26,389 nt of DNA from a virus. The translations under genes and the position numbers were made by a program. The notes under the pieces were generated by a model. That model ran no database searches and was not told the origin of the DNA. It saw only the letters and a list, made by a program, of their open reading frames with translations. The first letter of the stretch is position 1, and each line of letters starts with the position of its first letter. The DNA lies in IMG/VR virus record IMGVR_UViG_3300010397_000082, positions 1 through 26,389 of that record; one strand, written 5' to 3'. Below are positions 4,211 through 26,224 of this stretch, piece by piece.

Positions 4211-4824
4211 TCACTCCTGTTGGCGACGCTGCAGCTCGCGGGCAGACTTGGCGTACTGCGCGGCGAGGGCGGCTTCCTTGCGGGCCGTCTCGCGCTCGTG
4301 TTCACGGAATCGGGTGCCGACCTCCTTCTCCCAGAGCAGGGAATAGAGGTCGAACAGGTCCCGGAAGTCGTCGGGCAGGGGGCCGTACTCGGAGCGGAGG
4401 ATCGCCTTGGCCGCCCGAGGGGTCTCGGTCAGCGCTTGGTACGGCGGGGGGGCGATTCGGTAATCGGCCCACTCTCGGAGGACTCCTTCATCCTGCGCAC
4501 TAAAGGGGCGAGCACCGTGCCCTGATAGATGTCGTCGGCGCGGTCGGCGATCTCCCACTGGTCGGCGAAGTCGAGGGCGTCCAGCGCCTCTCGGGTGAGG
4601 GGCACCGGCTCGCCCTCGGCATCGACCAGGTTCCACGCCACCGGGCCTTGGTGGAGGTAGACCTCCCAAGCCTTGTTGATGTTGTGGTCGCCATCTCCGG
4701 AGAAGATGGCCGACACCGCATCGACGTTGGCCTGGAAGGGCAGCCGCTCGCGAAAGGTCACGGTGTCGCCCTTGGCGTGGGGCGTGTTGGGACAGGCGCA
4801 GTCCCGGAACTTGACGGGGGTCAT
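4211..4824 (-). CDS. Tail assembly chaperone, frameshifted long form (gpGT-like)
   Basis: This is the predicted fusion made by -1 ribosomal frameshifting. The short form is read in frame from 4824. At 4507-4501 the minus strand reads CCCTTTA, which in the short-form frame is C CCT TTA and fits the canonical X XXY YYZ slippery heptamer. After slippage at Leu108 the ribosome enters the -1 frame, which adds 96 residues (starting SAQDEGVLREWADYR) and stops at 4211, giving about 204 residues. The extension ends in a charged helix (EHERETARKEAALA). It has no convincing start of its own and lies just upstream of the tape measure, as gpT does in lambda-like phages. The long form is known in the family to bind the tape measure and recruit tail tube subunits. 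Frameshifting here is inferred from sequence. Confidence 0.8.
4429..4824 (-). CDS. Tail assembly chaperone, short form (gpG-like)
   Basis: 131 residues, starting at ATG 4824, between the major tail protein and the tape measure. It is the zero-frame product of the chaperone pair. The N-terminus has two nearby cysteines (RDCACPNTPH), then a mixed alpha/beta region (VTFRERLPFQANVDAV, INKAWEVYLH) and a helical part with DALDFADQWEIADRADDIYQ, a pattern common in chaperones of high-GC phages. The last 23 residues after the slippery site are low-complexity and charged, as expected for a short tail that has to overlap the other frame. In known systems the short form is made in large excess over the fused form. 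Confidence 0.8.
   Translation of the reverse strand: MTPVKFRDCACPNTPHAKGDTVTFRERLPFQANVDAVSAIFSGDGDHNINKAWEVYLHQGPVAWNLVDAEGEPVPLTREALDALDFADQWEIADRADDIYQGTVLAPLVRRMKESSESGPITESPPRRTKR
4501..4507 (-). promoter_or_regulatory. Programmed -1 frameshift slippery site CCCTTTA
   Basis: In the chaperone frame (start 4824) the codons are GCC CCT TTA, so the heptamer is C CCT TTA and both tRNAs can re-pair after slipping back one base to CCC TTT. The downstream -1 frame is open to 4211 and gives a sensible protein. A run of seven C lies about 60 bases further on (minus strand, near 4445-4451), but it is preceded by G in the phase needed and is a poorer candidate. I did not find an obvious strong stem directly after the site. 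Confidence 0.75.
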
Positions 4825-7089: not shown

Positions 7090-7720
7090 CGGCCACCGCC
7101 GTCCGGATCCGCCAGTTGTGGACGAACACCGGGGACGACACGGGTTCCGCTCCGAGGTCGATCTCCTCGCCCGTGGGCGTCTGGATCACCCCCGATGCGC
7201 CAGACTTGGCCCGCCAGTAGAACCACGCCGCGAGGAAGCGGACCTGCTCATACACGTCCGCGGTCCACGTCGGATGGCCCACGAACGAGGTGATCCGGAG
7301 ATCGAGCGGGATCGCCCCGTACCGCCGCCAGAACATATCGAGGTTCTTGTCCCACCACATCGGGTCAGCCTTGAACCAGTCGGCCCGGTTCGTGTCGAAC
7401 GCCGCGAGCTGGATCGTCGTCGAGATGTCCGGGTTCCTCCGATCCGGGAGGAGCCAATAGCCCTGCGTCTCGGTCAGGGCCACCCCGTTGAGGGTGACGA
7501 CCCGCGTCGCGTCGGTCTTGGGGATGTCGGTGATCTGGACGAGCACCTGACCGTCGGTCGAGTAGTCGCGCGTCGTGTTGCTGGCGTAGCTGAACGTCCG
7601 GCTCGTGTCGTGCTCGGCCTGCGCCGTGCCCGAGTTGATGGCGCTCGTGAGCAGGGCGTCGTCACCCGAACCCGTGAGCCCGAGGTAGGTCTTGAGTTCA
7701 GACAGCGTTGGCGCGGGCAT
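7082..7720 (-). CDS. Head-tail connector / adaptor protein (gp6-like)
   Basis: 212 residues, longer than a minimal HK97 gp6 adaptor. The start MPAPTLSELKTYLGL with GDDALLTSAINSGTAQAEHDTSRTF is the usual helical N-terminus of the connector family (phage gp6-like, which forms a ring beneath the portal). It continues with a beta-rich insert (QVLVQITDIPKTDATRVVTLNG) and a C-terminal helix (YEQVRFLAAWFYWRAKSGASG). It overlaps the upstream glycosyltransferase by 23 bases. Together with the gp10-like and terminator genes downstream it completes the neck, so the glycosyltransferases sit exactly between capsid and neck genes. Confidence 0.75.
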   Translation of the reverse strand: MPAPTLSELKTYLGLTGSGDDALLTSAINSGTAQAEHDTSRTFSYASNTTRDYSTDGQVLVQITDIPKTDATRVVTLNGVALTETQGYWLLPDRRNPDISTTIQLAAFDTNRADWFKADPMWWDKNLDMFWRRYGAIPLDLRITSFVGHPTWTADVYEQVRFLAAWFYWRAKSGASGVIQTPTGEEIDLGAEPVSSPVFVHNWRIRTAVAGV

Positions 7721-8960
7721 GGGGTTCCTCGAGGAGGGCCAGGAACTCCGCGATCGCGAGGTCCCAGTTGAACGAGCGCTCGACGTGCCTGCGCCCGGCC
7801 GCGCCCATCTCGCGCCTCCGGGCGGGCTTGGCGAGCAGGCCGAGGACCGGCTCGACGAAGCCCTTGGGATCGGGCACCGCCCAATCCATCCCGTAGGTCG
7901 AGTGGTAGCGGACCGGCTCGCCGTAGCTGTCGTGGAGCGGCGGGATCATCACCCCGCCGGGGCCGATGACCTCGGATTCGGCGGCCCAGTCCGACGACAC
8001 GACGGGCACCTCGCAGGCCAGCGATTCCGCGAGGGTCAGGCCGAAGCCCTCGCCGCCGGTCGTGGTCATGTACAGGTCGGCCGCGTTGTACAGCGCGACC
8101 AGCTTGTCGGTTGAGAGCCCGACGAAGGTGTCGGTCATGCCCGTGAACTGGACCCGCTTGTTGTCCCGGATCTCGGGCGGCATCCGCATCAGCTCGCCGA
8201 TGAGGTCGGAGCCCAGCGGGTCGTTGGCGGCGCAGTGGAGGATCAGATCCACCTCCGGATCCGCGAGGGCGATCGGGACGAACGCCTCGATGAGCGCCGG
8301 GTAGAACTTGCGGAGCGCGTTCCGGTCGGCGCGCAGGATGACCTTCCGCCCGGCCAGCCCGAAGTAGTCCTTGCAGGCGTCCTTGGTCCCCAGCCTCCGT
8401 CCGTCGACGATCACCGGGTCGCGCAGGCTGACCGGCCGGAATACCTGGGTGTCCACGCCGTGGTAGATCCGCGGCACGTACCGCCCGATGTGGGCCGAGA
8501 TGACCCGCTGCCCGTAGTCGCTCATCGCGACCGGCTGGATCAGGCCCCACACGTCGCGCCATGCCGGGGTCAGGTTGTCGCCCTCGATCGGGCAGTAGTG
8601 GAGGATCGGGATCGACCGCCACGCCGTCAGCTTGTCCGGTGTGGCCTGCCCGATGTGCGACAGGAGGCCCGTCATGTCCGAGATGACCAACCCCGCATCG
8701 GGCTTCCAGTCGTCGAGCGGATCGAGCCGCCGCCAGAACCCGCCTCCGATGACCTCGGCGCTGACGTTGCCGCCGTAGTCGTCACCGAAGATGCCCGCCG
8801 GCCAGACCCGCCCCGCCAGTGGTCCCTTGACAGGCTCGCCGCGATGGTTGACCGCGAGGACGCGCACGTCCAGCCCCGCCGCGAGGAAGCGGTTGGCGAG
8901 CTCGACCGTGACCGTCCCGAACCCGGTTGCCGAGTAGTGGCCCCAGATCAGGAGCCTCAC
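7698..8960 (-). CDS. Glycosyltransferase, GT4 / GT-B type
   Basis: 420 residues. The N-terminal Rossmann-like start is MRLLIWGHYSATGFGTVT, with a glycine-rich loop and strand DVRVLAVNH. The C-terminal half contains NKRVQFTGM, then a donor-binding segment GGEGFGLTLAESLACEVPVVSS, with glutamates near residues 304 and 312 that fit the E-x7-E motif of GT4 enzymes using nucleotide sugars. It acts in the host cytoplasm. Its start overlaps the stop of the preceding glycosyltransferase (ATGA), so the two are coupled. Together with the other transferases and the FkbM enzyme it may glycosylate capsid or other virion proteins; the target is an inference. Confidence 0.88.
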   Translation of the reverse strand: MRLLIWGHYSATGFGTVTVELANRFLAAGLDVRVLAVNHRGEPVKGPLAGRVWPAGIFGDDYGGNVSAEVIGGGFWRRLDPLDDWKPDAGLVISDMTGLLSHIGQATPDKLTAWRSIPILHYCPIEGDNLTPAWRDVWGLIQPVAMSDYGQRVISAHIGRYVPRIYHGVDTQVFRPVSLRDPVIVDGRRLGTKDACKDYFGLAGRKVILRADRNALRKFYPALIEAFVPIALADPEVDLILHCAANDPLGSDLIGELMRMPPEIRDNKRVQFTGMTDTFVGLSTDKLVALYNAADLYMTTTGGEGFGLTLAESLACEVPVVSSDWAAESEVIGPGGVMIPPLHDSYGEPVRYHSTYGMDWAVPDPKGFVEPVLGLLAKPARRREMGAAGRRHVERSFNWDLAIAEFLALLEEPHARANAV

Positions 8961-9979
8961 GGGAGCACCTGCGCGAACAGCGCCCGGATGGCCTGCTCCT
9001 CCTCATCGAAGTCGACGACCTCTCGGAAGCGGGCGGCCATTGCATCGCCCATCCGAACCCGTGTCTCGGGGTCCAGTGAGCGGACCACCCGCCGGATGTC
9101 GTCGGCCGAGCGTCCGGTGATGTCGAACGACGTGACGCCTTCCTGCCAGAGCGGCCCGGCGAGCTGGTTGGCGTAGTAGGACTGGAACCCGATGACCGGA
9201 CGCCCGACGGCGGCCCAGTTGTGAATAACGTGCCCGAACCCGTCGCTCCATTGCTTCGTGTGCCACGCGATGTCCGAGGCCCGCATCCGGTCCCCGACCT
9301 CGGCGCAGCGGGCCACGTCCTCGGTGGCGTACTCGTCGCGCGGGAGCTGCCCGTACGAGCCGTAGATGCGCCAGTCGATCTCGGTGGCGAGGTGGGCGAC
9401 CTCCCGGAACAGCGCGTAGCCCTGCGGGTTCTCCGGGAAGCAGTTGACGAACGATGAGACGACCGTCCGCTCGTGGTCCTCAGGTGGTTCGTGGCGGAAG
9501 TCGTCGAGGCTGAACTCCTGGTGGACGACGACGTGCGGCTTCGGGATCGGCCCCGGCATCAGGCTCGTCACGATCCCGAATGCCGCGAGATCCCAGCGGT
9601 CCTCGGCCATGTCGATCGGTGAGAAGCGGACGTTGCCGAGGTGGATGCCGAACGTCGCCCCGACCTCCGAGGCGAACCGCGCCAAGCCCTCGTGGTTGTG
9701 GGCGACCGACGCGATCACGATGTCCGGTCGGAGATCCCGCGCCTCCTGGAGGCTGAGGAGCTTGTGGAGCCGCCCCGGGTGGGACTTGTCGGCCCGAACG
9801 TCCGTGTCCGTGGGCAGCGGATCGAGGTACTGGCGGGCGACCCGATCGCCGTGCGCCGCCCGTTCGAAGTTCCAGTAGCCCTCGGTGAACCAGTCCATGC
9901 CGATGGGCCTGTAGAGCGTCCAGCCGAGCCGGGCGCAGAGGAGTTCGAGGCTCTCCCAGAGGTCGTGGTGGTGGACTAG
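8957..9979 (-). CDS. Glycosyltransferase, body of a gene split from its start by an HNH insertion
   Basis: The recognisable protein begins LVHHHDLWESLELLC and continues through RPIGMDWFTEGYW to the stop at 8957, about 340 residues. It shows a GT-B-like C-terminal half (DGFGHVIHNWAAVGRPVIGFQSYY, then a helical end). No ATG, GTG or TTG lies in this frame near the conserved start; the first in-frame codon upstream that could initiate is ATG 10138, antisense to the HNH gene, which would add about 55 unlikely residues. Joining the 14 bases 10510-10497 to 9974 gives an uninterrupted 343-residue protein starting M-K-V-L-V-H-H-H-D-L-W, with its ATG overlapping the previous gene's TGA. The frame is therefore whole except for a 522-base insertion. 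Whether the gene is dead, spliced or expressed from another start cannot be told from the sequence. Confidence 0.75.
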   Translation of the reverse strand, partial: LVHHHDLWESLELLCARLGWTLYRPIGMDWFTEGYWNFERAAHGDRVARQYLDPLPTDTDVRADKSHPGRLHKLLSLQEARDLRPDIVIASVAHNHEGLARFASEVGATFGIHLGNVRFSPIDMAEDRWDLAAFGIVTSLMPGPIPKPHVVVHQEFSLDDFRHEPPEDHERTVVSSFVNCFPENPQGYALFREVAHLATEIDWRIYGSYGQLPRDEYATEDVARCAEVGDRMRASDIAWHTKQWSDGFGHVIHNWAAVGRPVIGFQSYYANQLAGPLWQEGVTSFDITGRSADDIRRVVRSLDPETRVRMGDAMAARFREVVDFDEEEQAIRALFAQVLP

Positions 9980-9980
9980 T

Positions 9981-10006
9981 GGTAGTCCGCGAGAACGCGG
10001 ACTACC
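9981..10006. other. Perfect 11-bp hairpin at the left end of the HNH element
   Basis: GGTAGTCCGCG at 9981-9991 is the reverse complement of CGCGGACTACC at 9996-10006, with a four-base AGAA loop on the plus strand. It lies one base inside the left direct repeat. There is no T-tract on either side, so it is not a typical terminator. It could be an element end recognised as a structured DNA, part of an RNA, or an operator. Confidence 0.7.
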
Positions 10007-10028
10007 TGGGACCCTCCGTTGTTGGTGA

Positions 10029-10059
10029 CTGACATGGGAGGTGAGCGCTCCTGTATAAT
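10029..10059 (+). promoter_or_regulatory. Promoter of the HNH gene, likely leaderless
   Basis: CTGACA at 10029-10034 (five of six matches to TTGACA) and a perfect TATAAT at 10054-10059 are 19 bases apart. The ATG of the HNH gene is at 10067, seven bases after the -10 box, so transcription would start at or next to the start codon and the message would be leaderless. The palindrome GAGCGCTC at 10043-10050 sits between the two boxes and is a possible operator. Confidence 0.6.
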
Positions 10060-10066
10060 CTTGGTG

Positions 10067-10501
10067 ATGGTTAGGAAGTACGAGACGGACGAGGAACGGG
10101 CCGAAGCGCGACGTCAGGCGCTCTATCGGTACAACCATTCCGAGAAGGGCCGGGCCGCGCAGGCTCGTCGCGAGGCTGGCCCGTTGGCTCCTCTCCGATA
10201 TGCCCGCTATCGAGAGACCGCGAAGTACGAAGCGACCCAGCAGCGATTCAAGGACAGCGGCGGTCGGAACCGGCTAGCCGTGAAGCACCGCGCGGTCGTC
10301 CGAGCCGAACGGCCCGAACTTCTGGATGCATGGAAAGCCGTCGGTGCCGCTCTCCGCAGCGGACACCTAGTCCGCCCGCAAGGCTGTCAGGGATGCGGTC
10401 GCGAACTGCACCTCGTGGCGCATCACCACCTCGGCTATGCGCCCGAGCACTGGCTGGACGTTGAGTGGCTCTGTCGGCGATGCCACAAGAAGGCGCACTA
10501 G
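10067..10501 (+). CDS. HNH endonuclease-like zinc protein
   Basis: 144 residues from ATG 10067 (MVRKYETDEERAEARR). The first two thirds are basic and helical with many Arg, Ala and Glu, likely binding DNA. The last 38 residues hold CQGCGRELHLVAHHHLGY...WLCRRCHKKAH, i.e. C-x2-C, His-rich centre, then C-x2-C-H, the pattern of HNH nucleases of phages, with the zinc knuckle holding the beta-beta-alpha metal fold. It is on the opposite strand to every neighbouring gene, ends five bases before the end of one glycosyltransferase and lies within the broken start of the next. An Asn at the classical central position is not obvious, so catalysis is not proven. Likely the mobility function of the insertion it sits in. 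Confidence 0.75.
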   Translation: MVRKYETDEERAEARRQALYRYNHSEKGRAAQARREAGPLAPLRYARYRETAKYEATQQRFKDSGGRNRLAVKHRAVVRAERPELLDAWKAVGAALRSGHLVRPQGCQGCGRELHLVAHHHLGYAPEHWLDVEWLCRRCHKKAH

Positions 10502-10510
10502 CACCTTCAT
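10497..10510 (-). other. Displaced 5' end of the split glycosyltransferase
   Basis: The minus strand reads ATG AAG GTG CTA GT at these positions. The ATG shares ATGA with the stop of the preceding glycosyltransferase, the same coupling seen at nearly every junction of this operon. Read on without removal of the insertion, this start gives a 47-residue peptide that ends at a TAG inside the HNH gene's complement. Joined to 9974 it opens the full glycosyltransferase frame. Confidence 0.7.
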
Positions 10511-11532
10511 CGAAGGAACTCGACCCACTGCGTGCCGACCGTGGCGACATCGAACAGGTCGATGGCGCGCTCACGAACACGATCGCTCAGACCGGCAGCG
10601 ATCTCGGTTTCGTCGAGGAGCGTCCCCGCGACCGTCCCTGCTGTCAGGGCATCGTCGTAACCGTGCGGCCATGCGATTTCGTGACCCTCGAACAGCGCGG
10701 ACGGGCCACGCCATGCCTCGGGTCCCATGCTCACCATCGGCACCCCCGACAGCATCGCCTCGATCAGGCCGAGGGTGTAGGACGCGGGCGTGGTGCCTGT
10801 GTAGAGGTACGCCCGGAGGTGGCGGAGGTAGTCGAGCATCGCCGAGTACGAGAGGAGCCCGAGCCCGCCCATCTCCTCCGAGCCCGCCCCGGCCGGTTGG
10901 ACGGGGAGCCCTTCGGTGGCCGCCACCCAGAACCCGTAGCCGCAGGCGTCCCCGCGCTGCTTCATGTGCTGGGTGATGTTGCCGACGACCAGGTTGTCCC
11001 CGATCCACGGGCCGTAGTCGTCGGGGTACTTGCCGAACCGGATCAGGGCGTCCTGACCGGCCCATTGGCCGATGGCCTCGAAGTAGCGCCGTTCGGCGGG
11101 GGAGTAGCGGACGATCTGGAGGCCCTGCCGATGCAAGGGCTCCATGACCATCTCGAGCCTCGGATCGGACTGGCCGCAGGTGCGCCAGATGACCCGCTTG
11201 TGCTTGATCCGGTCCCACTGACCGACGATCCACTGCTCGGGGAAGTGGTGGACGATGACCGCGTCGGCCCAGTCGATGATGTTGTCGTGGAGCGCCGCCT
11301 TGCCCCAGTCGATCGCCGGGCCGGGCTCGCCGCGAGCCGCACGGACCTCTTGGAGGCGGGCCACGAGCTCCGGGTGATGCGGAGCGTCCGGGAGCGCGGG
11401 CCGGATACCCTCACCCGAGCGGGACGGGACCTCGTAGCCGCCCGGAGCGAAGGTGTCGAAGCCAAGGTCGGTGAACATCCGCAGGTCGTCGTATTCGGCA
11501 ACGGCGTGACTTGCGAGCAACAGGATGTTCAT
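10507..11532 (-). CDS. Glycosyltransferase (GT-B-like)
   Basis: 341 residues, start ATG 11532 overlapping the capsid-like small frame's stop (ATGA). The start MNILLLASHAVAEYDDLRMF is a Rossmann-type strand-turn-helix. Residues about 90-120 (ADAVIVHHFPEQW, HKRVIWRTCGQ) and the C-terminal segment YTGTTPASYTLGLIEAMLSGVPMVSMG (about 244-270) match the donor-binding region of GT-B glycosyltransferases, with a glutamate in LIEAM in the usual place. The acceptor is not known. It is the first of three transferases in one coupled string, and its stop overlaps the ATG of the displaced start of the second. Confidence 0.8.
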   Translation of the reverse strand: MNILLLASHAVAEYDDLRMFTDLGFDTFAPGGYEVPSRSGEGIRPALPDAPHHPELVARLQEVRAARGEPGPAIDWGKAALHDNIIDWADAVIVHHFPEQWIVGQWDRIKHKRVIWRTCGQSDPRLEMVMEPLHRQGLQIVRYSPAERRYFEAIGQWAGQDALIRFGKYPDDYGPWIGDNLVVGNITQHMKQRGDACGYGFWVAATEGLPVQPAGAGSEEMGGLGLLSYSAMLDYLRHLRAYLYTGTTPASYTLGLIEAMLSGVPMVSMGPEAWRGPSALFEGHEIAWPHGYDDALTAGTVAGTLLDETEIAAGLSDRVRERAIDLFDVATVGTQWVEFLR

Positions 11533-11705
11533 CCCGGCAGACGCCAGCGCTGTTCTCTCGGCAGCAGCCTACGTGTGTGACGCAATGGCCTGAACGGAAC
11601 GACAGCCTCGGCAAGGCGACCGGCGTTCACGAGTAAGGTGTTGCCGACGTCGTAGATCTGCGCCAGCGTGTAGAGCGTGCGCGTATATGGGCCGAAGTCG
11701 TTCAC
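11529..11705 (-). CDS. Capsid-like fragment (58 residues) coupled into the glycosylation cassette
   Basis: The frame starts at GTG 11705, overlapping the FkbM stop (GTGA), and stops at 11529, overlapping the next ATG (ATGA). Its first half, VNDFGPYTRTLYTLAQIYDV followed by GNTLLVNAG, resembles the major capsid protein of this same window, which has VRDFGFARATATLYTIAQIA followed by DIGNQLLRQSNG (around 13570-13450). After that the two diverge and the remaining 25 residues are Arg-rich and unlike capsid. It looks like a truncated copy of a capsid gene segment, from this phage or a relative, retained between two cassette genes. Because both ends are translationally coupled, it may be translated. 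Function unknown; it could equally be a recombination scar. Confidence 0.55.
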   Translation of the reverse strand: MNDFGPYTRTLYTLAQIYDVGNTLLVNAGRLAEAVVPFRPLRHTRRLLPREQRWRLPG

Positions 11706-12400
11706 TTCGGAGCCGCCCAGAACCAGCCCGTCGCCCCGACCGGCTTGAACGTCAGGACGTGGCTCTCGCCGAGCATCCGCTCCAAGCCTGGAGGGCCGGG
11801 ATCCCCGTGGTATTCGCCGAAGATGTACGGGATGTCGTTGACGAGCGGGCTGTCGAGCAGGCCCCACTCCCCGCCTTCGCAGTCGGTTTTCAGGGCTGCG
11901 ACCTTGCCCCCGGCCAGCTTCACGAGCTGGCGCAGGCTGTACTTGCGGACCTTGCGCGTCTCGTACTCGGGGAAGTCGAGGTTGCCGATGAAGCGGTCGT
12001 TGTGGGACAGGCCGATCTTGACCTCGGACGTCCCGACCGCGCCGTGGACGACCGTCGCATTGAGTTGGTTCTCGGCGATCGTGGCCTCGATCAGCGCGAT
12101 GTTCTCGACGAGCGGCTCGACGATGATCGCGCTGGCCTTCGGGTTGTCGAGCAGGACCGCGAGGCTGACCGTGCCGATGTGGCCGCCGACATCGAGGAAC
12201 ACGCCGTCGATGTACAGGTCGGCGAGGTGGTATTCGTCGTCGCCCTTCTGCCACGAGTTCGACAGCGTGGACAGGACCACCGATAGGTCCGACGTGTGCT
12301 CGCGGATGGCGATCCTGCCCGCATGAGCGCGCGGCGAGGAGATGTCCTCGAACCCGTCCCCGACGCCGTTTACCCGTTGGTCGACAAAGGTGCTGTTCAT
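11702..12400 (-). CDS. FkbM-family SAM-dependent methyltransferase
   Basis: 232 residues from ATG 12400, which overlaps the previous stop as TGATG; a GTG two codons upstream (12406) is possible. Residues about 66-77 (DGVFLDVGGHIGTV) are SAM-binding motif I, followed by AIIVEPLVENIALIEATI, where the glutamate of VEP should hold the SAM ribose, and VVHGAVG. Later come LKTDCEGGEWGLL and an IFGEYHG segment, both typical of FkbM enzymes, which methylate hydroxyls of sugars and related compounds. Adjacent glycosyltransferases suggest it methylates a sugar attached to a virion protein. The substrate is not shown by the sequence. Confidence 0.85.
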   Translation of the reverse strand: MNSTFVDQRVNGVGDGFEDISSPRAHAGRIAIREHTSDLSVVLSTLSNSWQKGDDEYHLADLYIDGVFLDVGGHIGTVSLAVLLDNPKASAIIVEPLVENIALIEATIAENQLNATVVHGAVGTSEVKIGLSHNDRFIGNLDFPEYETRKVRKYSLRQLVKLAGGKVAALKTDCEGGEWGLLDSPLVNDIPYIFGEYHGDPGPPGLERMLGESHVLTFKPVGATGWFWAAPK

Positions 12401-12726
12401 CAGCACTCACCGGGACCGGCGACAGGCCGGTCTGGGTCAGGCGTGGTGATCGTCGTGGTGATGGGGAAAGCCGGACTGTGGAAGGTGGCGCTGTTCTCGC
12501 GGATCAGCGTGTCGCGTAAACGGTGGTAGTCAGCTTCCAGTTCGATCCAGATGGCCCGTGCGAGGCTCGCCATCGGATAGTCGTCTTCTGCCGCCGCATC
12601 GCGGAAGTCGTCCGGTTCCTCACCGGGGCCGAACCATTGCTTGAACGGACTCCACGCCATGTGTTCGAGTTCGGCCGGGCCGACCATCGCTAGGGCATGA
12701 GCAAGTTGCTCGACGGTAATAGTCAC
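12400..12726 (-). CDS. Hypothetical protein at the head of the glycosylation cassette
   Basis: 108 residues, start GTG 12726 with GGAGG nine bases upstream, stop TGA shared with the ATG of the FkbM gene. The N-terminal helix (VEQLAHALAMVGPAELEHMAW) is followed by an acidic stretch and a helix with ASLARAIWIELEADYHRLRDTLI. The tail is Thr/Pro-rich (TTTITTPDPDRPV). No family recognised. It is the first gene after the two hairpins behind the capsid gene, so it opens the cassette's transcription unit or is read through at low level. Confidence 0.65.
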   Translation of the reverse strand: MTITVEQLAHALAMVGPAELEHMAWSPFKQWFGPGEEPDDFRDAAAEDDYPMASLARAIWIELEADYHRLRDTLIRENSATFHSPAFPITTTITTPDPDRPVAGPGEC

Positions 12727-12871: not shown

Positions 12872-13933
12872 CTAGATGCCGGTGACCTTCTGGACACGGC
12901 CGGTCCGCACGTACGGCTCGGCGTTGAACCCGAACTCCTCCTCCGCCCGGAACCCGGTGATGTTCTGGTCGAAGCGGTTGCCCGCCTCGGACGAGACGTC
13001 GATCCGGTATTCCTGACCGGTGTAGATCTCCACGTCGGAGCGCTCGATGATGAGCGCGGTGCCCGTCTGGGCCGACGGCCAGTTCGGGTCGCTCCGCATC
13101 GGAACGCCCCACGCAGAGGTGATCGGGGGATTGGCCGCCGCACCACCGGCGGGATCGACCGCCCAGCCACCGGCATACGAGGTGCCGAGGCCTTCGACGG
13201 ACGTCTCCCAGAAGTCGGTCGGGCTCATCACGATGACGAGGTTGTCGCGCGGAACGCCACGCGTCTCGAGGGCCGCGATGCCCCGGCCGAGGGCCGCGAG
13301 CCGAGGCTCCGAGGACAGCGCGGTCTTGAACAGGGCCGGGTCGCCGTAGGCGAGGAAGGCCTGGAAGAAGCCGAGCGGCTGGGACGAACCCGTGCCGTTC
13401 GTGATGTACGTGGCCTCGAGGATGCCGATCGATTTGCCCAGCCGGCGCCGGGCGGCGGATTCGGCGGCACCGTTGCTCTGGCGAAGGAGCTGGTTGCCGA
13501 TGTCCGCGATCTGGGCGATCGTGTACAGGGTCGCGGTGGCCCGGGCGAACCCGAAGTCACGCACGTCCTTGTTCGAGCCGTAGGCACCGGTCGCGCCTTG
13601 GAGCATCGCCGCGGTGATCGCGGTGACCTCGTACGGGATGTCGACCGCGGCGCCCGACACCCCATCGACCACGTTGAAGATGTCGCGGTAGATGTTGTTG
13701 GCCGCGATCTGGGTGACCAGACCGGCGACGAAGTTGTTGGGGACGACCGCGAGGCCGGTGGCGGTCGTCGTGCCGAGGACGGCCTTGACGAACTCCACCG
13801 CGTCGGGGTCGCCGTTCTTGCGGTTGATGAGGGCCGACAGGAAGTTCGTGTCGCTGTACTGGCCGACCGACTTCGTGCTGTCGGGAGCGCCCGCGCCGGC
13901 GAGGATCGCCGACGCCTTGGCCGATGCCGCCGA
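12872..13933 (-). CDS. Major capsid protein, HK97 fold (start not clear)
   Basis: The frame is open from just after a TAG at 13936-13934 down to a TAG at 12872. The first ATG, GTG or TTG is GTG 13798, giving 308 residues, but the 45 codons before it are coding-like (…SVGQYSDTNFLSALINRKNG) and run directly into AVEFVKAVL. No Shine-Dalgarno precedes GTG 13798. Features of HK97-type capsids include ATATGLAVVPNNFVAGL near the mature N-arm, RDFGFARATATLYTIAQIAD and GNQLLRQS (spine helix region), ETRGVPRDNLVIVMSPTDFW, and a C-terminal strand with NITGFRAEEEFGF. The coiled-coil gene upstream is in the same frame, so a read-through product would be about 429 residues, the usual size of a capsid protein with its delta domain. 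Confidence 0.85.
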   Translation of the reverse strand, partial: SAASAKASAILAGAGAPDSTKSVGQYSDTNFLSALINRKNGDPDAVEFVKAVLGTTTATGLAVVPNNFVAGLVTQIAANNIYRDIFNVVDGVSGAAVDIPYEVTAITAAMLQGATGAYGSNKDVRDFGFARATATLYTIAQIADIGNQLLRQSNGAAESAARRRLGKSIGILEATYITNGTGSSQPLGFFQAFLAYGDPALFKTALSSEPRLAALGRGIAALETRGVPRDNLVIVMSPTDFWETSVEGLGTSYAGGWAVDPAGGAAANPPITSAWGVPMRSDPNWPSAQTGTALIIERSDVEIYTGQEYRIDVSSEAGNRFDQNITGFRAEEEFGFNAEPYVRTGRVQKVTGI

Positions 13934-14161
13934 CTAGCGGAACGCCTTGAGCTGCTCGTCGAGACCGGCGAGCTTCGCATCGACTTCCTGCTGGCGCTTC
14001 TCGGCGATCAGCTCGTCGATGGCGGCCGACTTGGCGGTGATCTCCTCCTCGATGGAGGCGATCCGGTCCTTGGGCATGTCCGACTTGTCGCGGAGCTCCT
14101 CCGCGAGATCCCTGACCTGCTTGGTCAGGGCTTCGACCTGGCTATCGAGTTCCGGGGGCAT
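13934..14161 (-). CDS. Coiled-coil scaffold / delta-domain-like protein
   Basis: 75 residues from ATG 14161, with AAGGGA six bases upstream, to TAG at 13934. It is almost entirely heptad-like helix (LDSQVEALTKQVRDLAEEL, then IASIEEEITAKSAAIDELI) and ends LDEQLKAFR. It lies between the prohead protease and the capsid frame, where HK97-like phages carry the scaffolding delta domain as the N-terminus of the capsid protein. Here an amber codon ends it, and the capsid frame follows with no shift. It may be a separate scaffold or the first part of a capsid precursor. Confidence 0.75.
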   Translation of the reverse strand: MPPELDSQVEALTKQVRDLAEELRDKSDMPKDRIASIEEEITAKSAAIDELIAEKRQQEVDAKLAGLDEQLKAFR

Positions 14162-14201
14162 TGGTGTCCCTTTCTGGACACCACGTAGAGCGCGCCGTGG
14201 C

Positions 14202-14831
14202 TTATCGACGAAGGCTTTTGAGCGTCTCGTCGAGGAGGCTGAGGGTTGACGCCAGCCGCGCCATCGCCGGGTCGTCGCCACCTTGCGGCAGGTCGGAGCC
14301 AAGGTCGGACGGGACTTCGGTGAGCACGTCCCGCAGTTCGGGATCGAGTGCAATACCGGCAGAGGTGAAGTGATCGAGCGCCTTGGATGCGGTGATTCGC
14401 GACAGGCGGTTGATCGGCACGGGCGTGATGGTCTGCTCGGCGTGCGGCCAAACGAGGATCTCGCCGCTGCTGCGGTCGATCTTGACGAGGTGGCTGATCG
14501 AACCGGAGGAGCCGTAGGCCTTGCCCGCTCGGATCATCGCGTCGATCTGGGCGAAGTAGCGGTTCTGGCGATCGAGCCAGAGCGAGGCCCACCACCCCTC
14601 GTCGCCCTTGGTCAGCTCGCCCTCGACCCCGACATCCTCGTCTCCGAGGGTCGGATCCTTGCCGTGCTGGAAGATGACGGGGTGGTCCTTGAACCAGTGC
14701 GGCTTGACGTCGGTCCGGGGGCTAAAGAACTCCCCGTCACGATCCTTGCCGCCCTTGAACTCGCCCCCGAACGGGATCGCGAGGACGCGCCACTTGGCGG
14801 TACCGAGCTGCTCGGCTTTGAGGGCTTCCAT
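14202..14831 (-). CDS. Prohead (capsid maturation) protease
   Basis: 209 residues, start ATG 14831 with AGGAGA five bases upstream; that Shine-Dalgarno overlaps the stop of the preceding gene. Matches the HK97-like serine protease pattern: after an N-terminal strand pair (WRVLAIPFGG) comes PVIFQHGKDP with the candidate catalytic His56, then GEGWWASLWL-type strands and a helix RYFAQIDAMIRAGKAYGSSGS with the candidate serine at about 108-111. The third part of the catalytic set is less clear (His114 in SISHLVK may contribute). It would cleave the scaffold portion during head maturation. It sits directly before the coiled-coil and capsid genes, the conserved position. Confidence 0.85.
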   Translation of the reverse strand: MEALKAEQLGTAKWRVLAIPFGGEFKGGKDRDGEFFSPRTDVKPHWFKDHPVIFQHGKDPTLGDEDVGVEGELTKGDEGWWASLWLDRQNRYFAQIDAMIRAGKAYGSSGSISHLVKIDRSSGEILVWPHAEQTITPVPINRLSRITASKALDHFTSAGIALDPELRDVLTEVPSDLGSDLPQGGDDPAMARLASTLSLLDETLKSLRR

Positions 14832-14840
14832 CGAGTTCTC

Positions 14841-15431
14841 CTACGCGGCGAGCACGAGCGCTAGGTCGTCGTCGTTGACGGTGATCCGGGGTTCCGCCCC
14901 GACGAGAGAGAGTCGCGCTGGGATCGGTTCGGCCGATACCGGCTTGGGTGCTGTGCGCGGCAGTTGCCGCAGGAAGCGAGGCCCGACGCGGTGCGAGCCC
15001 TGTGCCATCCCTGTGTCCGGGACGGCCCCGGTGAGGACCAGCGAGGCCGGAGTTGGCAGGACGATCGCGCTGCCCGCCACCTCGACCGTCGGGACGGCCC
15101 CCGTCAGCGTCAGCGAGGCGAATGCGGGTTGGACCGCGCGCGGAGCGAGAACGGCGGGTGTCGCGCCCGTCAGCGTCAGGCTCGAGGCGGATGGCTGGGC
15201 GACCCGAGGCGTCGAGATGACCGGGACCGCGCCGCTGACCGTGAGGCTCGCCGCCGTCGGCAGGGTCACTCGCGGCGTCAGGACGACCGGCGTGGCCCCA
15301 GTGAGGGTCAGCGCGGCTGCGGGCGGCAGGACCACGACCGGATCGGCCGCGACACTCGCGTCCTGCCAGAAGTGGTCCCACGTCTGGCCGCGCTCCGAGA
15401 AGTTCTCCCAGCGGGCGTCTAGCCGTGCCAC
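14841..15431 (-). CDS. Repeat-containing structural protein (probable head decoration)
   Basis: 196 residues, start GTG 15431, one base after the stop of the fibre-like gene. The first 30 residues (RLDARWENFSERGQTWDHFW) may be an anchoring helix. Residues about 36-141 are five tandem units of 22-24 residues built around P-x-x-A-S-L-T-L-T-G-A-x-P, and a sixth degenerate unit is near the C-terminus (PIPARLSLVGAEP). Such beta-repeats suggest a surface-exposed, elongated protein. Located between portal-associated and protease genes. No enzyme motif is visible. The role as a virion surface protein is inferred. Confidence 0.65.
   Translation of the reverse strand: MARLDARWENFSERGQTWDHFWQDASVAADPVVVLPPAAALTLTGATPVVLTPRVTLPTAASLTVSGAVPVISTPRVAQPSASSLTLTGATPAVLAPRAVQPAFASLTLTGAVPTVEVAGSAIVLPTPASLVLTGAVPDTGMAQGSHRVGPRFLRQLPRTAPKPVSAEPIPARLSLVGAEPRITVNDDDLALVLAA
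15009..15326 (-). repeat. Tandem protein repeat, five units of about 66-72 bases
   Basis: Units begin at protein residues 36, 58, 80, 102 and 126, each with the core SLTLTGAxP or a close variant. The first three units are exactly 22 residues. The DNA copies have diverged but keep GTC-AGC-GTC-like and GGC-GCG-like runs, so the repeat is old or under selection at protein level. Confidence 0.7.
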
Positions 15432-17015: not shown

Positions 17016-19667
17016 CTAGGACTCCTCGATGCGGTCGATGGCGCCCGAGCGATCACGGATGATCTTGCGAGTGACCGGCTTCGGATCAGGGACGTGGACG
17101 TCGACCTGGACCGTCGGTGCAGGGGGTGTCTCGACGGTCACCACCGGGGCGGGCTGCTCTGGGACATTGACGTTGACGACTCCCGGCACCACGGTCACGT
17201 CGGCCGGCTGGACGGTGATCGGCACAACGGCCTCGGGCACGGTCACGTTGACCACCGGCTCGGGCACGTTCACCGTGACATCCGGGGTCGTGACGTGAAC
17301 GGGCTGGACGGTGACCTGCGTCTCGGGCGTCGTCACGTTGACGATCGTGGGTGGAACATTCACCTCGGCTGCCGCGACGCTGACCGGGATGGTGGTCGGG
17401 GCCATCTCGACGTGGACATCGGGCGGGGTGACCGCGTTGTGGACGTGGATCTCGGACTTCGTGCCGAGGCTGTCGATCGCCTTCATCGCCAACTCGAGCA
17501 GGCGATCCTCCCGATCGTCATACGCCTTGTCACCGATGACCGGCGACCAGACGAGCGTCCCGTTCGGGTGGTCCTCGATCGACAGGGCCTCGTCGACCGA
17601 GAAGATCTCGCCTGCCCGGTTGGCGCACTGCTCGTCCCCGTCGCCGTCGTACGCCTGCAAGCGCTCGACCCCGAACGCCCGATACCCGGTGACGGCGGAG
17701 CGGTTGTAGCTGAGCATCGTCTCGGTCCGGGCGATCGTCTCGGCTCGGAGGTCGTCGAAGGCGGGCACGCCGTTGTCGAGGAGCGCCCCTTTCAGCCCGC
17801 CGTAGCTCTCGGACGGGACGCCCTCGATCATCTGGTTGAGCGAGTAGCCCCTCCGAGTCCCCTCGGCGAGGATCTGCTGGACCGCGCCCCGGGTCGCCTC
17901 GTTGATGCCCGTGATCCGTTCACCGCCGTAGGTGAACAGGTCGTCGATGACGCTGTTGAGCTCGAACTTGCCGATGATCCGCTTGAGGTTGTCGGCGACC
18001 GCCTGTAGTCCAGCTCTCCCGACGGACACGTAGATGCCGCGCATCGTCTCGCGCAGCGCCTCGTCCTCGGCCGCCTGGTCCCACCAGTCGCCGGGATCGG
18101 CCTTCATCCCCCTACGGGCCTTCTGGCCCTTCGTGGTGATCCGTTCGGCGATCCGCTCGCGCTGGGCGTCAAGGAACATCGACAGGCTGCTCTTGGCCGT
18201 GCCCACGGCGTTCCGGACCAAGGCATCCCGCTGGTCCTCGATGGGTGCCGCCTTGACGAGGTTCTGCTGGACCTGCGCCAGATCCCGCCGGTTGGTGTCG
18301 GTCGCCGCGACCGTCAGGCCCGTCGTTGCCTCGGTGCCCGGCAGGGCCGGAGGAGGAGCGGGGCGGCCGAGGAACTTGATGTGATCCAACCCGACCGCTT
18401 CGACGGCGCCCTTCTCGTCGAAGCCCGCGTCCCACAGCGCCTTCAACGCGCCGACCTTCTCGATCAGGGCGGGGGCCGTGTCGAGGTTCGGCTCGGCGAC
18501 CTCGAAGTCGTAGGTCGTGCCCATGATCGCTTCGTACCGGGACAGCAGCCCGACCTGGACGATCTCCTCGAACAGCTCCACCCGCGGATGGATCGTGTCC
18601 TGCTGGTAAGCGAGCCGCTCCTCCCTGCGGACCTCGCCCGAGGCGTTCATGCCGCCCGGGACGGGGATGCCGAGCATGTACGGGCTGATCGGGAAGGCGG
18701 TCAGGATGTTGTCGCGGTTGAGCGTCGCGAGCTCGGGGATGCCGATGTCGGCCGGGGTCGAAGCGCCGGCCGAATACTCCATCGGCTCGGGGAACAGGAG
18801 CAGCCGGCGGGCCGCGTTGGGATCTGACGCGACGTTGCGCCATGCCCGCTGGGCATCCTGGAACTCGTCCTCGGTGAGGCTTCGCTCCTTCGGGGAGAGC
18901 ATCCCCGCCAACCGCCCGCCCGTCGTGAGGAGGTCGGTGACGTGGCGGGCCATCAGGTCCGACAGCGGCAGCTCGGAGTACACCGCATCCACCACGCCCA
19001 CTCCGAACGGATCGCCGTCGTCGGGGGAGGTGGTGGCGAAGGTCAGGATCTCGTCGACCTCGAACGGAACACCACCAGACGGCTTGTCGCGGTCCATGAC
19101 CCAGCCGATCAGGTTGCCCTGCCGGTCGTGGGACGGGAACATCCGGGCCGGGCTGATCCCGTAGATCGCGGTCGGCAGGCCGAGGGTCATGCCCTCCAGG
19201 TACCAGAACGCGGTCCCGGCCATGTCCAGCCGGATCTGCGTCTTGGCCCGGAGCTGGCGACCGGTCTGGTTCGGATTCGGGCGTTCCATGAGCCGCAGGA
19301 ACTGGCCGATCGGGTCCAGTCGCTCCCACGGGGTGAACAGGTCGGGCTCGATGACCGTCCGCTCGTTGTCGCCCTCGGTGTCCTCCGGGGCCACGGACAC
19401 CTTGAGGACCGCGATGTCCTCGGCGATCTTGTGCTCGGCCTTGTAGAACCAGCCGACCTTGTACGCCCTCATCGCCGCCGCGGCACGTCGCTGGGGCGTG
19501 TCGAGCAGGCTGTTGAGCGGGATTCCAGTGGCCCACGGTCCCAGCGCAGTGACCGCCTTGAGCGAGGCGGGGCGGATCGTCTGGAGGGCCTTCATCGGCT
19601 CGATGACCGTGGCCTGACCGGCCCACGGCGTGCCGTCCCATTCGCTCACCCGGATGTCGTCGGTCAC
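17016..19667 (-). CDS. Portal protein fused to a MuF-like head morphogenesis domain, with Val-Pro tail
   Basis: 883 residues, start GTG 19667 with AAAGGA six bases upstream. Residues about 1-430 form an HK97-type portal (MRAYKVGWFYKAEHKIAEDIA, FLRLMERPNPNQTG, IRLDMAGTAFWYLEG, then GEVRREERLAYQQDT). From about 500 to 730 comes a MuF-like minor head domain (RAETIARTETMLSYNRSAV, then AYDGDGDEQCANRAG). The portal forms the dodecameric DNA channel, and MuF proteins sit inside the head or aid assembly. The final 140 residues (about 735-865) are a run of V-N-V-T-V-P-E-type repeats with alternating valines and prolines, which should form an extended beta structure. The fusion and the repeat tail are directly visible; the role of the tail is unknown. 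Nearly twice the length of a plain portal. Confidence 0.9.
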   Translation of the reverse strand: MTDDIRVSEWDGTPWAGQATVIEPMKALQTIRPASLKAVTALGPWATGIPLNSLLDTPQRRAAAAMRAYKVGWFYKAEHKIAEDIAVLKVSVAPEDTEGDNERTVIEPDLFTPWERLDPIGQFLRLMERPNPNQTGRQLRAKTQIRLDMAGTAFWYLEGMTLGLPTAIYGISPARMFPSHDRQGNLIGWVMDRDKPSGGVPFEVDEILTFATTSPDDGDPFGVGVVDAVYSELPLSDLMARHVTDLLTTGGRLAGMLSPKERSLTEDEFQDAQRAWRNVASDPNAARRLLLFPEPMEYSAGASTPADIGIPELATLNRDNILTAFPISPYMLGIPVPGGMNASGEVRREERLAYQQDTIHPRVELFEEIVQVGLLSRYEAIMGTTYDFEVAEPNLDTAPALIEKVGALKALWDAGFDEKGAVEAVGLDHIKFLGRPAPPPALPGTEATTGLTVAATDTNRRDLAQVQQNLVKAAPIEDQRDALVRNAVGTAKSSLSMFLDAQRERIAERITTKGQKARRGMKADPGDWWDQAAEDEALRETMRGIYVSVGRAGLQAVADNLKRIIGKFELNSVIDDLFTYGGERITGINEATRGAVQQILAEGTRRGYSLNQMIEGVPSESYGGLKGALLDNGVPAFDDLRAETIARTETMLSYNRSAVTGYRAFGVERLQAYDGDGDEQCANRAGEIFSVDEALSIEDHPNGTLVWSPVIGDKAYDDREDRLLELAMKAIDSLGTKSEIHVHNAVTPPDVHVEMAPTTIPVSVAAAEVNVPPTIVNVTTPETQVTVQPVHVTTPDVTVNVPEPVVNVTVPEAVVPITVQPADVTVVPGVVNVNVPEQPAPVVTVETPPAPTVQVDVHVPDPKPVTRKIIRDRSGAIDRIEES

Positions 19668-25333: not shown

Positions 25334-26224
25334 CTAGACCTCCTTTGAGTAGCCGGAGCTGAGGAACCAGCCGTCCATCCGGGAACCGGCCTTGTGGATC
25401 TGGACGAGGCTGATCCGCGTCCCGATGTTCGTGGGGTAGGACTTCGGGCCGCCGCACGCGAGCTGGAAGCCCTCGGTCTCGCGGACCTGTCGGAGATCCA
25501 TCCGGGCCACCCCATCGACGACCTGGTGACGGGTGTACCGGCGCACGATGGCAGGCTTGATGGGGCGCACGGTGACGACGTAGTTGGCCGTGATGTCGCG
25601 GGTGAACGCGCAATTGGCCTTGCCGATGCCGAGCAGTCCGTCGCCCAGATCGAGGGTGCCCGCGAACCGCTCCAAGACCGCCCATGTCGTCGCGACGCGC
25701 TTGGTCAGCGGGTCATCGAACCACGGCACGCCGTAGTCGGCTCCGCACTCGATGGCGTGGTTCTTGGCGAAGCCGTTGCCGTAGCCCTGACCCGCCTCGA
25801 TGAGCGCCCGGCGCGCCCCATTGAGGATGGCCTGATCGCCGGCGATGACCCGGCTCTTGAACGATGCGAACGGGTAGCCGGTGTGGACGTCGAGGTCGAT
25901 CTTGCCGTTGGACAGCTTGTATATCGCCGCATGGACCTGGGTGAGGGTCAGCCCCGGCGATTCGGGGTCCGGGATGGGTTCGTTCGTGGCGGCACGGATC
26001 TGCGCCCCGGTGAACAGGAGCGCCCCGCACGTGTCGGCCTGCCCTGCCATCCCAGCCGAGCACGCCTGACAGTTGACGTTGCCGTACTTGCCGCCCCACT
26101 TGTACTCGAGCTGGGCCTGATGGGTCGGGTGGAAGCCGGTGCACTTGCCGGTCGTCATGGCTTCCTCTCGGGCGATCCTTTGGCAGATCGAACACTCCCT
26201 CGGATCGTGGAACCAGCGGTCCAA
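25334..26224 (-). CDS. Possible Cys-His-Asp (papain-like) peptidase or amidase
   Basis: 296 residues from TTG 26224; ATG 26158 with a GAGAGGA four bases upstream is a good alternative start (274 residues), in which case the CSIC motif is lost. The core has GNVNCQACSAGMAG (Cys52), later FAKNHAIECGADYG (His156) and VPWFDD (Asp170), in the order and spacing of the papain/C39-like fold. This suggests a cell-wall or protein hydrolase such as a lysin, though no known wall-binding domain is visible. The C-terminal 100 residues are strand-rich. The three holin-like genes downstream fit a lysis role, but the evidence is weak. Confidence 0.5.
   Translation of the reverse strand: MDRWFHDPRECSICQRIAREEAMTTGKCTGFHPTHQAQLEYKWGGKYGNVNCQACSAGMAGQADTCGALLFTGAQIRAATNEPIPDPESPGLTLTQVHAAIYKLSNGKIDLDVHTGYPFASFKSRVIAGDQAILNGARRALIEAGQGYGNGFAKNHAIECGADYGVPWFDDPLTKRVATTWAVLERFAGTLDLGDGLLGIGKANCAFTRDITANYVVTVRPIKPAIVRRYTRHQVVDGVARMDLRQVRETEGFQLACGGPKSYPTNIGTRISLVQIHKAGSRMDGWFLSSGYSKEV

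Follow-up and report, generated by a model that had tools for sequence, protein, structure and literature searches.

The delta-capsid frame of the window, a 26,389-base fragment held as an IMG/VR virus record, carries an in-frame TAG at codon 76 (minus strand, 13936..13934), for which the best explanation (probability about 0.86) is a private lesion of the contig that plays no programmed part and arose either by recent nonsense mutation or as an error of the consensus. The TAG is present in the sequence as read, but we do not regard it as functional. If it is a mutation, the sampled virus would yield only a free delta peptide of 75 residues and no capsid, and no full-length product would be expected from the TAG allele; in the alternative case, the TAG would be a mistake in the consensus sequence. 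Recoding cannot be read from one private stop in a metagenomic contig, and relatives settle most of such a stop-codon question quickly.

On the minus strand, the frame runs from an ATG at 14161 through the 75 codons of the delta-domain segment (13937..14161) to the TAG (13934..13936), and then through 353 open codons of the major capsid frame (12872..13933), closing at a second TAG (12874..12872). This reading of the frame upheld the in-frame amber between the delta segment and the capsid frame described in the original prediction. A likely ribosome-binding site of the delta-capsid gene, GAAAGGG (minus strand, 14168..14174), ends six bases before the ATG, and the same motif is found in L003, the nearest relative covering this site. 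Past the TAG, the first ATG, GTG or TTG is the GTG at 13798, with 45 codons in between, and no Shine-Dalgarno match was found upstream of it, in agreement with the earlier claim of a 45-codon gap leading to a start that lacks a ribosome-binding site. By base composition alone, the 353 open codons past the TAG have a probability of ~3e-4; because many shadow frames are open at the G+C of the window, coding status was rested on homology and not on this chance probability. The frame aligns on both sides of the TAG with 34 relative records and, judged by these alignments, is real coding sequence; a chance open frame was set aside on the same grounds.

The read-through product comprises 429 residues. 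PF05065 (Phage_capsid) matched residues 138-412 with 71.0 bits (cut-off 24.2), the corresponding score in the unmodified window being 71.7 bits, and a match to phrog_10 (major head protein) spanned residues 8-413. A structure model of the product, built from 30 sequences and of moderate confidence (mean pLDDT 64.6, pTM 0.52), predicted two helices (residues 2-25 and 31-87) ahead of the capsid body, with the TAG position towards the end of the second helix, within a low-confidence stretch. Foldseek matched the model to HK97 Prohead II chain 8cfa_B (probability 1.00, TM by target 0.63), and further to the T5 capsid, the T7 capsid and encapsulins, and a profile search retrieved HK97 gp5 (1if0_A) with an E value of 0.0009. 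The helical N-terminal scaffold domain stands in one frame with the capsid in the relatives, and in the window only when the frame is followed past the TAG. In this HK97-type tailed phage, delta domain and capsid belong to one ordinary fused gene, and the expectation of a 429-residue delta-capsid precursor in the standard HK97 arrangement, were the TAG absent, was supported by the PF05065 match, the predicted helices and the fused frames of the relatives.

The arrangement resembles that of HK97 gp5 in the fusion of an N-terminal helical domain to a PF05065/HK97-fold capsid, with the portal and presumed protease genes upstream, and differs from it in the TAG at codon 76 of the window copy. According to PMC10275583, the capsid protein of HK97 includes the scaffold as one of its domains; coiled coils have been modelled across residues 2-66, and the cleavage site is K103/S104. 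In the window, the portal gene lies at 17016..19667 (minus strand, PHROG and Pfam matches). The upstream neighbour of the delta segment (14202..14831, minus strand) is presumed from its position to encode the prohead protease, and neither PHROG nor Pfam gave a match for it.

Relatives were gathered by two viral scans, one with the capsid and one with its alignment, and by one pattern scan. None of the 34 related viral records has a stop interrupting the delta-capsid frame. Of these, 33 encode an amino acid at the homologous codon (29 Arg, 2 Lys, 1 Gln and 1 Thr), and in the remaining record, L009, the codon falls in a gap, the end of its delta domain being missing. The figure of 34 counts records and not independent lineages, as it includes near-identical sets such as L044/L045, L007/L053 and L011/L014/L057/L058. 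More distant relatives at ~40% identity (L026-L028), left out of the 34, also have open frames, and four others (L017, L021, L025 and L029) do not cover the TAG site. Among all relatives readable at the site, the TAG is, on this sequence comparison, private to the window contig. The comparison with related phages called for in the original prediction found a sense codon in all 33 relatives having the position, which argues against a conserved programmed function of the TAG. An intron at the TAG was considered not likely, the number of codons around the site being about the same as in the relatives.

The window's own population and further relatives were also looked for. No other viral contig among those open to the search matched a 30-base pattern in which any codon was allowed at the TAG position. 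A degenerate junction pattern retrieved 10 records, of which four were already known and the remaining six had open frames, and a second such pattern retrieved the L003 contig only. Two scans of the genome collection gave no relatives, and neither DNA nor protein searches of the phage collection found any.

If this virus, like some Crassvirales, read TAG as an amino acid, the frame would be uninterrupted; we regard such a reassignment as extremely improbable. In amber-recoded phages, including Crassvirales and others, TAG is read as Gln (PMC11210395). The window shares with them an in-frame TAG in a structural gene, and differs in having a single such codon, in using TAG as an ordinary terminator and in yielding no suppressor tRNA. 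Among the 27 relatives whose sequence includes the end of the capsid gene, 21 close it with TAG and six with TAA, so that TAG terminates in this family. In the window, 9 of 34 closed ORFs, a hand-picked set that includes the capsid ORF, end at TAG. These terminators, in the window and in the relatives, corroborate the original view that TAG is not simply reassigned. Of the genes then listed as ending at TAG, the portal and capsid genes do so; the peptidase-like gene is doubtful, as TAA closes the presumed prohead protease gene (14202-14831), although an ORF at 25334-26224 that ends at TAG may be the gene that was meant.

A survey for internal stops, in which 20 window genes were compared with 7 relative records and 17 of the genes found relatives, covered 90 alignments and 27,931 relative codons without a stop, and the only internal stop in the 20 window genes is the amber at codon 76. 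No tRNA genes, and with them no suppressor tRNA, were found in the window, itself a fragment of a genome, or in 15 relative pieces. A TAG-recoded genome (table 15) was rejected, with TAG common as a terminator and one internal stop in 20 genes.

The age of the stop was constrained by the nearest relatives, L029 and L025, which are contigs of metagenome 3300044711. In L029, which spans residues 1-61 of the delta domain, one synonymous and no non-synonymous codon differs from the window; in L025, which spans the 148 codons for residues 282-429 of the read-through product, 12 synonymous and no non-synonymous codons differ. With L003 as the outgroup, 7 of these 12 changes fall on the window's branch and 3 on that of L025, with 2 undecided. 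The neutral opportunity in the distal capsid is 2.56 non-synonymous changes per synonymous change, so that a capsid without function along the whole of the window's branch should have gathered ~18 non-synonymous changes there, against 0 observed. By a Poisson estimate, any dead period of the capsid takes up no more than about a sixth of this branch. As far as codon changes can tell, this pattern shows purifying selection on the distal capsid until recently, and by the same estimate the stop would be younger than about a sixth of the branch, absent from the real genome, or non-inactivating.

These figures bear directly on whether the window might represent an old decaying provirus or a defective phage that lost its capsid long ago. 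The private stop, together with a private 3-residue insertion described below, would fit such decay; however, 12 synonymous against 0 non-synonymous codons in the distal capsid argue against a long-standing loss of capsid function and largely refute it, and no further internal stop was found in the 20 genes, leaving old decay scarcely credible. Since the sister contigs end at window position 13977 and resume at 13318, breaking on both sides of the TAG site and leaving it outside their coverage, the amber may possibly be clade-specific and common to the sister population.

Programmed or host-suppressed read-through would have most ribosomes release the delta scaffold while a fraction make the precursor, thereby setting the scaffold:capsid ratio. 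It would accord with a frame open on both sides of the TAG, with purifying selection on the distal part, and with the placement of the TAG in the model, near the end of the delta helix and before the presumed maturation site. It would also accord with a predicted RNA hairpin beginning 18 nt after the TAG (minus strand, 13893..13915). The 100 nt starting with the TAG folded at -48.7 kcal/mol (z -3.1; 1 of 200 shuffles as good), and a repeat run gave z -2.7, the lowest of 27 members, as the 26 relatives go down only to -2.2. However, z fell to -3.3 and -3.2 in two windows elsewhere in the gene (starts at 13111 and 13061), and two other windows around the TAG gave -1.0 and -0.9. The hairpin is thus ordinary within its gene and, because equal or lower z values occur elsewhere in it, its signal is weak support for read-through.

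Against read-through also stands the absence of a stop at this position from all 34 relative records. Read-through levels are typically low, whereas a capsid protein is needed in hundreds of copies. We consider read-through quite unlikely. If true, it would be a rare tailed-phage instance of a stop codon exerting control between scaffold and capsid. In Q-beta, read-through adds a C-terminal extension to an already complete coat protein and relies on a conserved signal; the window resembles it in having a stop inside a capsid-related frame, but this stop lies ahead of the entire capsid domain and lacks conservation in relatives. No case of an amber between a delta domain and a capsid was found in the open-licence literature.

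The gene might instead be split, with a separate delta scaffold and a capsid restarted after the TAG from GTG 13798 or from a non-standard start. Many tailed phages have a separate scaffold gene, and one in-frame candidate, ATC 13906, has a 3-base Shine-Dalgarno run, with AAGG 8 nt upstream. The candidate starts are nevertheless poor: ATC 13906 overlaps the predicted hairpin, and CTG 13840, ATC 13828 and GTG 13798 have no Shine-Dalgarno run. A start at GTG 13798 would lose N-arm residues that are conserved in relatives, and no relative is split. We consider a split gene highly improbable. Five options had been offered for the TAG in the original prediction; a mutation and a sequence error stand as likely, whereas read-through, rare initiation and recoding were weakened by the tests above.

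A further proposal is that the amber and its 3' hairpin were recently recruited at the delta-capsid junction, where partial read-through would give both free scaffold and fused precursor; we hold this to be very unlikely. That such a recruitment would be a first step from a fused to a separate scaffold, possibly also in the sister population, is just as doubtful a suggestion.

The lesion is accompanied by a second private change. A 9-base in-frame insertion (minus strand, 13589..13597), adding three residues (189-191), falls in a capsid stretch of otherwise constant length, is absent from all 30 relatives compared and is private to the contig. It lies within a low-confidence loop of the model (residues 170-209), probably at the tip of the E-loop. 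The two private changes lie less than 350 bases apart, in an interval across which the sister assembly is broken, and this slightly raises our suspicion of strain mixture or assembly trouble.

Identity with the sister contig G002 (L067) rises from ~75% at 14401-14800 to 99% at 14001-14200. On these values the jump, located between the protease and the delta segment, is a mosaic border of the kind seen in ordinary phage mosaicism. The same comparison demonstrated no chimeric join at the TAG.

Several other features of the window were recorded. Downstream of the capsid, a minus-strand cluster (7698-8960, 8957-10138, 10507-11532 and 11702-12406) comprises a group-1 glycosyltransferase (Pfam), two proteins without a family match and an FkbM-type methyltransferase below the cut-off; it has counterparts in relatives and may modify the virion. 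An endonuclease gene (phrog_2340; plus strand, 10019-10501) lies on the opposite strand among these genes after the capsid. Two ORFs without a family match (minus strand, 4211-4824) overlap in different frames and directly precede the presumed tape-measure gene, at the position of tail assembly chaperones, which are usually joined by a frameshift. Finally, an ORF at 14841-15431 (minus strand), which has no PHROG match, consists of repeated segments around 'LTLTGA.P' and is present in two of the seven relative records.
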